A DNA stretch of 43,125 nucleotides, taken from contig CATLEJ010000004.1 in the NCBI GenBank assembly GCA_949916125.1, positions 1 through 43,125 of the forward strand. The letters are read 5' to 3'. Within the stretch, counting starts at the first letter, position 1; every line of letters begins with the position of its first letter. Made by a program: the position numbers and the translations under genes. The notes under the pieces are model-generated. The model was not told where the DNA came from and ran no database searches. It saw only the letters and a program-made list of their open reading frames with translations. Source of the DNA: an uncultured Oscillospiraceae bacterium (GTDB lineage Bacteria; Bacillota; Clostridia; Oscillospirales; Oscillospiraceae). This document shows, piece after piece, positions 190 to 40,373 of the stretch.

Positions 190-1392
<1,203 letters not shown>

Positions 1393-1512
1393 TTTGAGTT
1401 TTCCTCCTTGTACTGATTAAAGTTGTAATGTGTTGGGACAAATCAGGTTGATGGGCCTATTTTATCCTATAGCGGCAGAAATTGCAACTGTTTTTTGTGC
1501 CGCCGGCACTGC

Positions 1513-3621
1513 TCACGCGTCCTCCTTGCGGCCGCGCTGGGCGATGATCTTTTCCGCGATGCTCTTGGGGATCTCCACGTAGCTGTGGGGCTCCATGGTG
1601 TACTGGCCGCGGCCCTGGGTGCGGGAGCGCAGGTCGGTGGCGTAGCCGAACATCTCGGACAGGGGGACCAGCGCGTCCACCTGGGTGGCGCCGGGCCGGG
1701 CCTCCTGGCCCTGGATCTGGCCCCGGCGGCTGGTGAGGTCGCCGATGACGTTGCCCAGGTACTCGTCGGGGGCGGTGACGGACACCTTCATGATGGGCTC
1801 CAGCAGGCAGGCCCCGGCCTTGCGGCAGGCCTCCTTGAAGGCCATGGAGCCGGCGATCTTGAACGCCATCTCGGAGGAATCCACCTCATGGTAGGAGCCG
1901 AACACCAGATGGACCTTCACGTCCACCACGGGGTAGCCGGCCAGCACGCCGGCCTGCATGGCCCCCTGGATGCCCGCGTCAACGGCGGGGATAAACTCCT
2001 TGGGGATGACGCCGCCGGTGATCTCGTTGAGGAACTCGTAGCCCTTGCCGGGCTCGTTGGGCTCCACCTCCAGGACCACGTGGCCGTACTGGCCCTTGCC
2101 GCCGGACTGGCGGGCATACTTGGTGTCCTGCTTGACGGCGGTCTTGATGGTCTCCTTGTAGGCCACCTGGGGCGCGCCCACATTGGCCTCCACCTTGTAC
2201 TCGCGCAGCAGGCGGTCCACGATGATCTCCAGGTGGAGCTCGCCCATGCCGGCGATGATGGTCTGGCCCGTCTCCTCGTCGGTGTAGGTCTTGAAGGTGG
2301 GGTCCTCCTCGGCCAGCTTCATCAGGGCGATGCCCATCTTCTCCTGGCCGGCCTTGGTCTTGGGCTCGATGGCCACCCGGATCACGGGCTCGGGGAACTC
2401 CATGGACTCCAGGATCACCGGGTGCTTCTCGTCGCACAGCGTGTCGCCGGTGGTGGAATTCTTCAAGCCGATGACGGCGGCGATGTCGCCGGCGTACACG
2501 GTCTCGATATCCTCCCGGTGGTTAGCGTGCATCTGCAGAATGCGGCCGATGCGCTCCTTCTGCTTCTTGGTGCTGTTGAGCACCGACGTGCCGGTGTTCA
2601 GCGTGCCGGAATACACCCGGATGAAGGACAGACGGCCCACAAACGGGTCGGTGGCAATTTTAAACGCCAGGGCGGAGAAGGGCTCGTCGTCGGAGGACGG
2701 GCGCTCCTCTTCCTCCTCGGTGTCCGGGTTCACGCCCTTGATGGGCGGGATGTCGGTGGGGGCGGGCATATAGTCCACAATCGCGTCCAGCAGCTTCTGC
2801 ACGCCCTTGTTGCGGTAAGAGGTGCCGCAGGTGACGGGAACCAGCAGGTTGTCGATGGTGCCCCGGCGCAGGGCCCGGCGCAGCAGCTCCTGGGGAATGG
2901 GCTTCTCGTCCAGGGCCAGCTCCATGATCTCCTCGTCAATGTCGGCGCAGGCGTCCACCAGCTTGGTGCGGTATTCCTGGGCCAGCTCCATCATGTCCTC
3001 GGGGATGGGCTCCACGCGCATATCCTTGCCCATCTCGTCGTAGTAGATATCGGCGTCCATCTCCACCAGGTCGATGATCCCCTTGAAGGTCTCCTCTTTC
3101 CCGATGGGGAGCTGGATGGGCACAGCGTTGGCCTTGAGCCGGTCGTGGATCATGTTGAGCACGTTGTAGAAGTCGGCGCCCATGATGTCCATCTTGTTGA
3201 CGTAGATCATGCGGGGCACCTTGTAGTGGTCCGCCTGACGCCACACGGTCTCGGACTGGGGCTCCACGCCGCCCTTGGCGCACATGACGGTGACAGAGCC
3301 GTCCAGCACCCGCAGGGAGCGCTCCACCTCCACGGTGAAGTCCACGTGGCCCGGGGTGTCGATGATGTTGATCCGGGTTTGGGGGAACTGGTCCTTGGTG
3401 CCCTTCCAGTAGCAGGTGGTGGCGGCGGACGTAATCGTGATGCCGCGCTCCTGCTCCTGGGCCATCCAGTCCATGGTGGCGGTGCCGTCATGGGTCTCGC
3501 CGATCTTGTAGTTCACGCCGGTGTAGTACAGAATACGCTCGGTGGTGGTGGTCTTGCCGGCGTCGATGTGGGCCATGATGCCGATATTTCTGGTATTTTC
3601 CAGAGAAACTTTTCTCGCCAT
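1513..3621 (-). CDS. fusA: Elongation factor G
   Basis: [35 protein letters not shown]; 702 aa. Confidence 0.99.
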
Positions 3622-3642
3622 GTTGGTCTGTGTCCTCCGTCC

Positions 3643-4113
3643 TTACCAGCGGTAGTGGGCGAACGCCTTGTTGGCCTCGGCCATCTTGTGGGTGTCCTCG
3701 CGCTTCTTCACGGCGGAGCCGGTGTTGTTGGCGGCGTCCATGATCTCGCCGGCCAGCCGCTCCTTCATGGTCTTCTCGCCGCGGTTGCGGGAGTAGGTGG
3801 TCAGCCACCGCAGGCCCAGGGTCTGCCGGCGCTCGGGCCGGACCTCCATGGGGACCTGGTAGGTGGAGCCGCCCACACGGCGGGACTTGGTCTCCAGAGA
3901 CGGCATGATGTTCTCGATGGCGGTGGTGAACACCTCCAGGGGTTCTTTGCCGGTCTTATCCTTGATGATGTCAAAAGCACCGTAGACGACCTTCTGGGCC
4001 ACGCCCTTCTTGCCGTCCAGCATGATGCTGTTGACGAGCTTAGTGACTAAGACGGAATTATACAGCGGGTCGGGCAGAACCTCCCGCTTGGGTACGTTAC
4101 CACGTCTGGGCAC
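3643..4113 (-). CDS. rpsG: 30S ribosomal protein S7
   Basis: [37 protein letters not shown]; 156 aa. Confidence 0.99.
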
Positions 4114-4327
4114 TTCGCTTCCCTCCTTCTATATAGAATTAGAATTCACAGGTACTCGAAGTTTTTCGAGCGGCGCGCGAAGCGCGGGCTCAAAAACATC
4201 TCCGTACAATGCCTGTCCGAGGCGCACCCATAAAATATAGGTAAACGCCCGGCAAGGCTTTCGGCCTTGCGCGTGTGCGCAAAACTCGTTGTGGGTTGAA
4301 GCGTCGCCGCTTCACGTCGGGGAAGAA

Positions 4328-4750
4328 TTACTTCTTCTTCGCCTTGGGCCGCTTGGCGCCGTACTTGGAGCGGGCCTGCATCCGGCCGTTGACGCCCTGG
4401 GTGTCCAGAGTGCCGCGGATGATGTGGTAACGCACGCCGGGCAGATCCTTCACACGGCCGCCGCGGATCATGACCACGGAGTGCTCCTGCAGGTTGTGGC
4501 CCACGCCGGGGATATAGGCGGTGACCTCGTAGCCGTTGGTCAGGCGCACACGGGCGATCTTACGCAGCGCGGAGTTGGGCTTCTTCGGGGTGGAAGTACG
4601 CACCGCGGTGCACACGCCCCGTTTCTGGGGGGAGGGCAGATCGGTCTCCTTGTTCTTCAGGGTGTTCAGGCCGTGCTGCATGGCGGGGGAGTTGGACTTG
4701 TAGGTGGCCTTCTCCCGGCCCTTGCGAACCAGCTGGTTAAAAGTAGGCAT
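4328..4750 (-). CDS. rpsL: 30S ribosomal protein S12
   Basis: [13 protein letters not shown]...[17 protein letters not shown]; 140 aa. Confidence 0.99.
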
Positions 4751-4829
4751 GATGTTCCTCCTTTCAATAAATATATATTTTAACGAATGATCCGGGGATT
4801 ATTCGCTAAAACCGGAAAAATCTGTGGGG

Positions 4830-4965
4830 CATTGTCACACTGCGCCTGTTCGCGACGCGCGGCTTCGCTCCGGCTCGGGCAAAACCCAGCCCCACTTCGT
4901 GGGTCTTGGGCTTTTCCCCTCGCTCCGCTCCATCCGCGCGGCTCACGACGGCTCCGCGCTTCTCA
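4830..4965 (-). repeat. Mosaic dispersed intergenic repeat, copy R1
   Basis: Minus-strand GAGAAGCGCGGAGCCGTCGTGAG...AAAAGCCCAAGACCCACGAAGTGGGGCTGGGTTTTGC...CGCGTCGCGAACAGGCGCAGTGTGACAATG aligns with copies at 15.2, 34.3 and 40.0-40.3 kb. Confidence 0.8.
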
Positions 4966-5200
4966 GCTCGGCCGCGGCGGACGTGCCCACGGCCAGACCG
5001 CAGGCGCGGCCAAGCTCCTTCATGGAGGGGACCCAGATCACGTCCACGCCCCGCTCCGCCGCCTGGCGCTCCAGGGGCTGTGTCAGCTGGGGGTCGGCGT
5101 CCTTCGCCAGGTACAGGCGCTTGACCCGGCCCGCCGCCAGCGCCCGGCGGATCTGCTTGACGCCCGCGGCCTTCGCCGCGTTCTTCAGTTCCTCCAGCAT
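4943..5200 (-). CDS. L7Ae/L30e-family ribosomal protein (YbxF-like)
   Basis: MLEELKNAAKAAGVKQIRRALAAGRVKRLYLAKDADPQLTQPLERQAAERGVDVIWVPSMKELGRACGLAVGTSAA; position next to rpsL; internal start chosen over ORF-track start. Confidence 0.9.
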   Translation of the reverse strand: MLEELKNAAKAAGVKQIRRALAAGRVKRLYLAKDADPQLTQPLERQAAERGVDVIWVPSMKELGRACGLAVGTSAAAELRSAEPS

Positions 5201-14294: not shown

Positions 14295-15260
14295 ATGGTA
14301 AACTTTACGGAATTTTCGTTTCCCTCCAGGGACGGGGTCCATCAGTGCCACGCGAGCCTGTGGACGCGTTCGGACACCGAGCCCCGGGCGGTGGTGCAGA
14401 TCGTCCACGGCGTGGCGGAGTACGCTGGGCGGTACGACGCCTTCGCCCGGTATCTTGCGGACCACGGCTTCGCCGTGTGCGGCGAGGACCACCTGGGCCA
14501 CGGCAAGACGGTGGACGACGGCAAATACGGCTACTTCGGCAAAAAGGACGGCTGGACGCTGGTGACCGCCGACGTGCGGCAGCTGCGCGTTCTCATGGGG
14601 GAAAAATTCCCCGGCGTGCCCTACTTCCTGCTGGGCCACTCCATGGGCTCCTTCCTGGCCCGCACCTACCTGTGCAAATATCCCGGCACGGTGGACGGCT
14701 GCATCCTGTCCGGCACCGGCCAGGAGAAGCCCGCCCTGGTGGCGGCGGGCAAGGCGGTGGCCGGCGCTATTTGTGCCGTCCGGGGGCCGGAGGCGGTGAG
14801 CGGCCTCATCGACAAGCTGTCCCTGGGGGCGTACAACAAGCAGTTCCAGCCCAACCGCACCACGGCGGACTGGATCTGCCGGGACGAGGCGGTGGTGGAC
14901 AAGTACCTGAAAGATCCCTTCTGCACCTTCAAGCCCACCGCCGGGATGTTCCGGGACATGATGGGGGGCCTTCAGTATATCGCCAGCGAGGAGGCCCTGT
15001 CCGCCATGGACCCCCGCACCCCGGTGTACCTGTTCTCCGGGGACCAGGACCCGGTGGGCTCCAACGGGGAGGGCGTGAAGCGGGTGTACGGCTTCTTCAA
15101 GGACCACGGCACCGCGGACCTCACCATGAAGCTCTACCCCGGCGGGCGGCACGAGATGCTCAACGAGATCAACAAGGGCGAGGTGTACGCCGACGTGCTG
15201 GCCTGGCTGGAGCAGAGAAGCGCGGAAAAGCGGACAGTGAGGGAGCTTGGAGCGGAGTGA
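14295..15260 (+). CDS. Alpha/beta hydrolase (monoacylglycerol lipase-like)
   Basis: VQIVHGVAEYAGRYDAFARYLADHGFAV, nucleophile elbow LLGHSMGSF, FSGDQDPVG, YPGGRHEML. Confidence 0.92.
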   Translation: MVNFTEFSFPSRDGVHQCHASLWTRSDTEPRAVVQIVHGVAEYAGRYDAFARYLADHGFAVCGEDHLGHGKTVDDGKYGYFGKKDGWTLVTADVRQLRVLMGEKFPGVPYFLLGHSMGSFLARTYLCKYPGTVDGCILSGTGQEKPALVAAGKAVAGAICAVRGPEAVSGLIDKLSLGAYNKQFQPNRTTADWICRDEAVVDKYLKDPFCTFKPTAGMFRDMMGGLQYIASEEALSAMDPRTPVYLFSGDQDPVGSNGEGVKRVYGFFKDHGTADLTMKLYPGGRHEMLNEINKGEVYADVLAWLEQRSAEKRTVRELGAE

Positions 15261-15405
15261 AAGCAAAAGCCAAGGCCCGCGCAGCGGGGCTGGGTTTTGC
15301 TTGAGTCGCAGCGGCGGTGTGTGCCAGTGGCACACGTCTACCGCACGACCGAGCCGAAGGCGAGACAGCGACCGAATGTCCTGGCCGCTTCGCAGCGTGA
15401 CAATG
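15214..15405 (+). repeat. Mosaic dispersed intergenic repeat, copy R2
   Basis: GAGAAGCGCGGAAAAGCGGACAGTGAGGGAGCTTGGAGCGGAGTGAAAGCAAAAGCC...GGGTTTTGCTTGAGTCGCAGCG...TGTCCTGGCCGCTTCGCAGCGTGACAATG aligns closely with 39989-40128; contains an extra GTGTGCC-AGT-GGCACAC hairpin. Confidence 0.82.
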
Positions 15406-32164: not shown

Positions 32165-32249
32165 GGAGGAGTACCCAAGTGGCCAAAGGGGACAGACTGT
32201 AAATCTGCTGGCTTCGCCTTCGATGGTTCGAATCCATCCTCCTCCACCA
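32165..32249 (+). tRNA. tRNA-Tyr (anticodon GTA), long variable arm, CCA encoded
   Basis: Acceptor GGAGGAG/CTCCTCC, anticodon loop CTGTAAA, T-arm GATGG-TTCGAAT-CCATC. Confidence 0.97.
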
Positions 32250-32299
32250 AAAAGAGGGCAGATGCGAGAGCATCTGCCCTCTTTTTGGTGGAGGAGGAT
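32236..32299 (+). terminator. 30-bp perfect inverted repeat: terminator hairpin extended into the tRNA-Tyr 3' end
   Basis: ATCCTCCTCCACCAAAAAGAGGGCAGATGC-GAGA-GCATCTGCCCTCTTTTTGGTGGAGGAGGAT. Confidence 0.92.
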
Positions 32300-34201: not shown

Positions 34202-34241
34202 GCGGATTCCCTCGATTCTGTTTCCAGCCCCGCAGCGCCCG

Positions 34242-34366
34242 CATCGTCACGCTTCGCCTGTTCGCAACGCGCGGCTTCGCTCCGTCTCGGCCTGGTCTCC
34301 GGCCCGCTGCGCGGGCCTGCGCTCGGTCTCGCTGCGCTCCATCCGCGCTACTCACGACGGCTCAGC
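34242..34366 (-). repeat. Mosaic dispersed intergenic repeat, copy R3
   Basis: Minus strand GCTGAGCCGTCGTGAGTAGCGCGGATGGAGCGCAGCGAG...GAGACGGAGCGAAGCCGCGCGTTGCGAACAGGCGAAGCGTGACGATG aligns with R1. Confidence 0.78.
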
Positions 34367-36090
34367 GCCCGCACCAGCTCCTGGCTGGGGGTGACGTATA
34401 CGGTGCGGCAGGTGTTGTAAATCACGTAGCCCGGCTTGGCGCCGGCGGGCTTCTTCACCGCCTTCACCGGGGTGTAGTCCACCGGCACCTGCCCGGACTC
34501 CCGGCCCTGGGAGAACCAGGCCGCCAGCATGGCCGCCTCGGTGAGGGAGGCCTCGTCCGGCTCCGCGCCGCCGGTTTTCAAGATGACGTGGGAGCCGTGG
34601 AGCTTCTGGGCGTGGAGCCACAGGTCCCGCTTGTCCGCGTCCCTGGTGGTCAGCCGGTCGTTCTGGCTGTTGTTCTTGCCCACCAGGATGGTGAGGCCGG
34701 AGGAGGAGCGGAACTCCATGGGCTTGGCGCGCACGACCTTCACCCGGCCCTTGCCGGTCATCTTCCGCTTGTGCTGCTTGAGGTAGCCGTTGTCCATCAG
34801 CTCCTGGCGGATCTCCTGGAGGTCCTTGTCCCCCTCGGACAGGGTGATCATTTGCAGCACGCTGTCCAGGTAATCCAGCTCGCCCCGGTTCTTCTCCAGC
34901 TGGATGGTCAGCATTTCCTCCGCCTTCTGGGCCTTTTTGTAGTCCTTGTAATACTTGGCGGCGTTCTGCTGGGGGGTGAGCAGGGGGTCCAGGGGAATGT
35001 CCACGTCCCCGGCCGACCGGTCGTAATAGTTCTGCGCCCGCAGGACGGTCTGGCCCCTGCTCATCTGATAGAAGTTGGTGGTGATGATATCGCCGTACTG
35101 GCGCAGCTTCTCCCGGTCGGCGGTGCGGGCCAGGTCCCCCTCCTGGTTGGCGATCTTCTTCGCCGTGCGGTTCCGGGCCTGGGTGACGGAGCGGATGAAG
35201 TCCTGCCCCCGCTGGCGTACCCGCTCCTGGGCCTCCTTCTGCTCGTAGAAGTCGTCCAGCAGGGCGGAGAAGGTGGGGTACCGGCGCAGCTCCACCGAGG
35301 GGCCGTACTGGAGCACGGCCTGGAAGGTGAAGTCGAAGGGCTTCCCGTCCCGGAGCAGGGCGGTGGGGGTATAGTCCCCGGCCCGCACCCGGTCTATGAG
35401 CTGGGCAAAGCGGTCCGCCAGCCCGTCCCGGGCGCCGTCCCCCTGGAACGCCAGCTCCCGGGCGGTGAGGGGGGACAGGCCGTTGAAGCTGTCCAGCAGC
35501 CACTTGTCCTGGCCGTCCCCCTCGGGGGCGTTGGCCAGGATCAAGGCGCGCAGCTCCTCGGGGGCCAGGCGGGAGGGATCCAGCCGGCCGGTGGGCTCCG
35601 GGGGGGCGTAGTACAGCCCCGGCATGACGGGGCGCTTGGCGGACAGATCCCCGTCCGCCCGGCGCATACAGTCGGTGATGCGCCCCGCGCCGTCCAGCAT
35701 AATCAGGTTGGATTTGCGCCCGATGCACTCCAGCACCAGCCGCCGCTCCACCCGGTCGCCCAGCTCGTCCAGCGTCTCGAAGCGGAAGTCCAGCAGCCGC
35801 TCCATGGAGGGCTGGGTGAGCTCCAGCAGCCGGGCCCCGGTGAAGTGCTTGCGCAGCAGCATACAGAACATGGGGGGCGTCTCCGGGTTCTCCCGGGGGA
35901 CCTTGGTGAGCTGGGCCCGGGGGTGGGCGGGGCTGGCGGACAGCAGCAGGCGGACGTTCTCCCGTCCCGCCCGCATATGGAGCACCGCCTCGTCCCGGGC
36001 GGGCTGGTAGAGCTTGTCCACCTTGCCGCCGATGAGGGTGCTTCGCAGTTCCCCGGCCAGCGCGGTCATAAAGATAGCGTCAAAAGGCAT
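34348..36090 (-). CDS. rqcH: Ribosome quality control protein RqcH (NFACT/FbpA family)
   Basis: MPFDAIFMTALAGELRSTLIGGKVDKLYQPARDEAVLHMRAG; RKSNLIMLD; NFACT-R GLTILVGKNNSQNDRLTTRDADKRDLWLHAQKLHGSHVIL. Confidence 0.96.
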   Translation of the reverse strand: MPFDAIFMTALAGELRSTLIGGKVDKLYQPARDEAVLHMRAGRENVRLLLSASPAHPRAQLTKVPRENPETPPMFCMLLRKHFTGARLLELTQPSMERLLDFRFETLDELGDRVERRLVLECIGRKSNLIMLDGAGRITDCMRRADGDLSAKRPVMPGLYYAPPEPTGRLDPSRLAPEELRALILANAPEGDGQDKWLLDSFNGLSPLTARELAFQGDGARDGLADRFAQLIDRVRAGDYTPTALLRDGKPFDFTFQAVLQYGPSVELRRYPTFSALLDDFYEQKEAQERVRQRGQDFIRSVTQARNRTAKKIANQEGDLARTADREKLRQYGDIITTNFYQMSRGQTVLRAQNYYDRSAGDVDIPLDPLLTPQQNAAKYYKDYKKAQKAEEMLTIQLEKNRGELDYLDSVLQMITLSEGDKDLQEIRQELMDNGYLKQHKRKMTGKGRVKVVRAKPMEFRSSSGLTILVGKNNSQNDRLTTRDADKRDLWLHAQKLHGSHVILKTGGAEPDEASLTEAAMLAAWFSQGRESGQVPVDYTPVKAVKKPAGAKPGYVIYNTCRTVYVTPSQELVRALSRRE

Positions 36091-39988: not shown

Positions 39989-40317
39989 GAGGAAGCGCGG
40001 AGAAGCGGACAGCGAGGAAGCTTGGAGTGGAGCGAAAGCAAAAGCCCAAGGCCCACGAAATGGGACTGGATTTTGCTTGAGTCGCAGCGAAAGCGACCGA
40101 GCGTCCTGGCCGCTTCGCAGCGTGACAACAGCGGAAGCGCGGAGCCGTCGTGAGCAGCGGGCTAACTCCGAAGCGGAGCGAATTGGCCGGAGCCGCCGAG
40201 GGCGGCGCAGGACAATTTGCGCAGTCGGAGGAGTTAGAGCCGCGTCGCGAACAGGCGCAGCGTGACAACAGCGGAAGCGCGGAGCCGTCGTGAGCAGCGG
40301 GCTAACTCCGAAGCGGG
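39989..40317 (+). repeat. Mosaic dispersed intergenic repeat, compound copy R4
   Basis: Contains R2-like module then two identical 61-bp units at 40116-40176 and 40256-40316. Confidence 0.88.
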
Positions 40318-40373
40318 GCGGACAGCTTTGTGGGGGCCCCAAAAAAGCCGGTTGCGCGGAGAGGAGTTTTTAT

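Follow-up and report, generated by a model that had tools for sequence, protein, structure and literature searches.

A dispersed, sense-oriented hairpin repeat at the 3' ends of genes in an Oscillospiraceae bacterium

Stable hairpins in general are enriched within 50 bp after stop codons (PMC1590033), and it is already known from BOX and RU elements that repeats can encode the ends of genes. In enterobacteria, the ERIC element (also IRU or RU-1) is an imperfect palindrome of ~127 bp found in intergenic space, with TA-flanked termini and a target duplication, and it is co-transcribed, its orientation being important for the stability of the upstream mRNA (PMC2229807). ERIC can also encode protein ends, and RU elements occur inside open reading frames (PMC2759123). 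In Streptococcus pneumoniae, 36 genes have their extreme 3' end, stop codon included, formed by a BOX element; signs of truncation are few for BOX, and gaps between convergent genes are enriched in it (PMC3049150). ERIC in Yersinia and BOX in pneumococcus form the comparison set for co-transcribed gene-end hairpins that affect mRNA life or processing (PMC2229807, PMC3049150, PMC1590033).

The present analysis concerns a stretch of 43,125 nucleotides (the window) from an uncultured Oscillospiraceae bacterium, in which a 21-mer termed R1, AGAAGCGCGGAGCCGTCGTGA, sits at 4943–4963 on the reverse strand. The original prediction held that R1 encodes the C-terminus and stop codon of an L7Ae-like gene, and this was borne out, since the L7Ae/YbxF-like gene (85 aa; 4943–5200, reverse strand; PF01248, E 8e-10) terminates in frame with RSAEPS and a TGA, both supplied by the repeat. 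The repeat module as first delimited holds for the 21 bp at 4943–4963 but not for 4964–4965, which are bases of the native Leu codon. Moreover, R1 is not the stand-alone unit it had been taken for, but the 5' edge of a hairpin element of ~130 bp, whose full-length copy 1 occupies ~132 nt at 4832–4963 on the reverse strand (nhmmer model positions 1–132, 102.9 bits) and has a predicted fold of -63 kcal/mol (z -2.7). Copy 1 is located between L7Ae and rpsL, the ribosomal protein S12 gene that comes next in the str operon (4328–4750, reverse strand; PF00164, E 1e-36), and the operon is intact. The order L7Ae-rpsL-rpsG-fusA-tuf is preserved over 190–5200, with fusA and tuf assigned by position and size only, and the rpsL leader on the far side of copy 1 is conserved across the genus.

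L7Ae orthologs without the element end in AAEL, VAATV or similar residues. In the closest relatives, G034 and G035 (identity of 97% on the rpsL side), the L7Ae site is empty and reads GAG or GAA, CTT, TGA; in the source genome, GAG CTG is followed by the element and then by TG-CCCC, and the downstream leader aligns beyond the element. By alignment to these two empty sites, the TG found 3' of the element at 4830–4831 (reverse strand) represents bases 1 and 2 of the TGA at which the ancestral gene stopped, which places the insertion exactly between the last Leu codon and the old TGA. Since the site is empty in the closest relatives, RSAEPS and its stop are element-encoded, and, with insertion directly 5' of the ancestral stop, zero residues were lost and six gained. 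Translation of L7Ae extends six codons into the element and halts at the TGA found there. An alternative reading of this end, with a frameshift of 2 nt beyond a TGA in common with G006 (TGA followed by GAAGCGCGGA), was rejected because the closer relatives identify the G006 string as local sequence and place the insertion just 5' of the stop.

An iterated profile search over 655 kb of the 2.76-Mb, 239-contig draft genome recovered 59 copies of this imperfect-hairpin repeat, which measures ~130–190 bp. R1 itself, at up to 3 mismatches, occurs 3 times in the window and 32 times genome-wide, the chance expectation being 0 by shuffling and 0 for a reversed-pattern control; the hydrolase and rqcH copies described below were missed at this threshold because they are in different frames and belong to different arm subtypes. 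The outer foot, AGAAGCGC/GCGTGACAA, is almost invariant, and inside it are nested arm modules of several subtypes, each with a matching partner (GCCGTCGTGAGC with GTCGCGAACAGGC, GAAGCGGACAGCGAGG with TCCTGGCCGCTTC and GCAGACGGCTGC with GTCAGGCGGCTGC, among others). Over 35 copies, 93.5% of cells were paired in the consensus structure, compared with 74% in shuffled and 22–54% in slid controls, and two-sided (compensatory) changes were observed in 16 of 23 pairs. Swapping halves gave a mean fold inferior to that of a copy's own halves in every case (35/35, average difference 11.5 kcal/mol), and the transcribed, sense strand folded better than its complement in every copy (35/35), these counts and those of the pairs representing non-independent events because the copies are related by descent. 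As a point against selection on the RNA, template-switching hairpin correction could also preserve arm complementarity, although it would not favour the G-U pairs of one strand. A U-tract at the hairpin foot was present in only 2 copies, so the element is generally no intrinsic terminator, and that assignment was rejected. Except for tRNAs, no known Rfam RNA was found at gathering score in the window, where a perfect 30-bp inverted repeat with a 4-nt loop (32236–32299) is also located at the very end of a tRNA gene.

The window holds six copies, namely those at L7Ae, a hydrolase gene and rqcH, and a tandem of two full units and one truncated unit. Copy 2, which is longer and of another arm subtype, lies on the forward strand at the end of the S33 hydrolase gene (copy 15216–15403, nhmmer 71.3 bits; gene 14295–15260, PF12146; stop 15258–15260). 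Orthologs of this hydrolase end in LEGHI or LDRHI, whereas here LEQ is followed by the element-encoded RSAEKRTVRELGAE and stop, and the right flank begins with TGAGG, matching the empty site. Copy 3 (34246–34368, reverse strand, nhmmer 67.7 bits) lies at the end of rqcH (NFACT; 34348–36090, reverse strand; PF05833; stop 34348–34350), which terminates with VRALSRRE, whereas the element-free orthologs end in VRALR.GK.. (37 ortholog loci, most of them native, with VRALR.GKK and variants). SRRE also occurs in the rqcH genes of three relatives, L129, L131 and L137, which read further into element-like or following sequence, and in L129 nearly the whole element is read through in frame. The native rqcH 3' end, displaced, is still recognisable behind copy 3, bounded by the 11-bp direct repeat TGCGGGCGCTG on the reverse strand; the left copy of this repeat is found at 34363–34373, and the right one, at 34233–34243, continues into the displaced ancestral end. 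The tandem array (39992–40331, forward strand) begins 115 bp after the upstream stop and comprises copy 4 (39992–40128, nhmmer 85.3 bits), copy 5 (40134–40268, 70.1 bits) and copy 6, reduced to its 5' 58 nt (40274–40331, 31.3 bits). It had been claimed that the hydrolase and rqcH also end inside copies of the repeat, and they indeed end inside copies of the same element; likewise, the count of three of four copies over a stop codon is correct per site, the fourth being the tandem. Other head-to-tail arrays, with a period of ~136–142 bp, were observed at G013:C152:401-753 and G040:C18:26409-26813, which suggests copy-number change by recombination.

In agreement with what had been expected from alignment to repeat-free orthologs, homology stops at the element edge in the L7Ae, hydrolase, rqcH, infC, SSB-like, UPF0020 methyltransferase, Maf, shikimate kinase and YbjQ genes. 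Together with some nine genes in other parts of the genome, L7Ae, the hydrolase and rqcH take their stop and a short tail from the element, the losses at such genes being confined to the last few residues. Genes such as rpsO, nusG, miaA and pth retain their native stop, with the element just behind it. As separate cases, a TAATG stop-start overlap at L092:16725 (G000:C9) is split by the element, with a new GGAG ribosome-binding site before the downstream ATG, and at L285 (G013) a copy with an internal deletion seems to be translated in full, forming the tail EKREAARREQAQRDNI on an orthologous protein. RSAEPS-type tails are shared by no fewer than five unrelated proteins (L7Ae, shikimate kinase, Maf and the C104 and C121 genes), which would favour the view that the encoded tail (RSAEPS, SAEKR..RELGAE) is itself selected, for instance as a stability or localisation tag. 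This view is highly improbable, given that three reading frames and several tails are in use and that, of the copies next to a stop, the majority come after a native stop that has been preserved and contribute no tail. The peptide tails would instead be by-products of the position of the 5' edge relative to the reading frame.

With regard to orientation, gap counts rest on gene calls made with our own hexamer-based caller, not on an annotation. Among 49 element-containing gaps, 40 were co-directional, 5 convergent and 4 divergent. Copies in the co-directional gaps were sense in 38 cases and antisense in 2 (p=1.5e-9), all five in the convergent gaps had the same strand as the gene that they overlap at its end, and loci of other species yielded 15 sense and 0 antisense copies. 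Eight contigs carry elements on both strands, each following gene direction, and therefore the orientation bias follows transcription and not the replicon strand, so that a replication-strand bias was rejected as its cause. The 5' edge was located between -45 and +5 nt from the upstream stop in 26 of the 38 sense cases, whereas within-gap permutation expects 12–21 (P 0.04 to <5e-5, the range being set by the tolerated overlap and ribosome-binding-site space). The enrichment at stop codons proposed originally was thus recovered, and the bias is also present in other species; it is real, but partly forced because intergenic gaps are short. Such forcing, and the restriction of losses to the last few residues, would be in line with passive survivorship, in which insertion is random and gene-end copies survive because the last residues are dispensable, with no selection on RNA. 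However, this would predict approximately equal orientations, which the observed 53:2 strongly disfavours, and it predicts neither the covariation nor the strand-specific fold, making it an improbable explanation. Copies far from a stop were found behind other transcript features, again in sense. T-box leaders precede the element at L097:3732-3912 and L099:11149-11392 (E 1.2e-17 and 1.3e-5, below gathering score), the former ending 5 nt before the element and the latter overlapping it by ~22 nt; L111 is a third likely case, by motif only. Other distant copies follow runs resembling terminators and, as judged by visual inspection, the end of a 23S rRNA.

The 44-nt 5'-arm motif is present in 19 of 42 species of the Oscillospiraceae genus, a group of gut bacteria, DNA-level matches were found in 8 of 18 sampled congeners besides the source genome, and no DNA match to the element was obtained in 11 genomes belonging to other families within the order. 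The main rival to selection on the transcript would dispense with any RNA function: the mobiliser itself would place the element in sense at gene 3' ends, its substrate being, for instance, a transcript or a structure exposed where translation or transcription ends. In principle, the sense bias (38:2 and 15:0) could stem from such an oriented insertion mechanism alone, which would also agree with the recurrent placement directly after stop codons and T-box antiterminators, and with rpsO and infC, where copies with different arm subtypes are found at the stop in several species. On the other hand, there is no left-flank or target motif and no general target duplication around the copies, the only ones beyond chance being those of the tandem copies and the 11-bp repeat that flanks the rqcH copy. 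Hence, of the earlier proposal of insertion at, or selection for, gene ends, the stop bias stands, whereas insertion targeted to the stop codon is not backed by any consistent target motif or duplication. Furthermore, no candidate mobiliser tracks the element: Y1/RAYT had 0 matches in G000, G004, G012, G013, G015 and G017, this family as well as the IS110 and reverse-transcriptase families are missing from several element-rich genomes, and the latter two were rejected as mobilisers because their distribution does not follow the element across the 42 species. Insertion in a fixed orientation would also leave the better folding of the sense RNA unexplained, and we consider it unlikely, albeit the strongest of the alternatives. 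Slightly more doubtful still is a so far unrecognised mobiliser that inserts the hairpin specifically behind genes and in sense only, and whose target may be RNA or the ends of transcription or translation. If sense-only insertion were true, the element would spread as a ready-made 3'-UTR module, writing new C-termini as it does so.

Considering these findings, the R1 element is probably a non-autonomous, dispersed and co-transcribed hairpin that lies after genes, similar to ERIC and BOX. The dominant signal is strand orientation together with RNA covariation, which points to RNA-level selection and not to a search for stop codons. Since the sense orientation and covariation are accompanied by strand-specific folding, the transcribed hairpin appears to be what is maintained, and the unit kept would be this RNA. 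The element may be tolerated or favoured just after genes because it is there outside the reading frame of conserved residues, is co-transcribed and can serve as a hairpin at the mRNA 3' end or at operon junctions. In such a position, the hairpin could protect the upstream message or mark it for processing, a role also proposed for ERIC and BOX hairpins, and we infer mRNA stabilisation or cleavage as its putative effect. The family represents a naturally replicated experiment in gene-end remodelling, with one hairpin, dozens of stop codons and clean empty sites in sister species, and would make it directly testable whether an mRNA function accounts for the retention of such repeats or they are merely tolerated. 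It is also a warning for annotation, since conserved-looking C-terminal tails such as RSAEPS can be repeat-derived, including those on a ribosome-associated protein and on RqcH.

In comparison with known systems, the element shares with the ERIC-like class an imperfect palindrome of ~100–200 bp dispersed in intergenic space, an oriented placement beside or over stop codons and the capacity to form protein ends. In the work of De Gregorio (2005), ERIC copies at stop codons reportedly favour one orientation. Unlike ERIC, the present element has neither TA termini nor a TA target duplication, its host is a Firmicute of the Oscillospiraceae and its sense bias is nearly absolute at all distances; we know of no sequence relation between the two, which are set apart by description. 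BOX, likewise compared by description, is also a modular hairpin repeat of a Firmicute that encodes gene ends and stops, but the tails described here replace native ends, co-directional gaps dominate, and the modules are nested and paired, whereas those of BOX are serial (A-B-C). REP/REPIN elements with RAYT are similar in being dispersed hairpins near gene ends; the present element is much longer, and this assignment was rejected because no Y1 transposase (RAYT) was found in the source or other element-rich genomes. Integron attC sites also resemble it as imperfect hairpins in fixed orientation directly after a gene stop, but were rejected, since R'/R'' core boxes were found in 0/41 copies, an integron integrase exceeded the cut-off in 0/42 genomes and the genes lie in their native operons. 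A MITE mobilised by a DDE transposase was also rejected, as the ends AGAAGCGC / GCGTGACAAC pair imperfectly and there is no target duplication of fixed length. In the literature searched, no Oscillospiraceae element of this type was found, nor any description of the sequence family, its occurrence in this genus, its nested modules with their covariation or its near-absolute sense orientation; the family and this orientation appear to be new.
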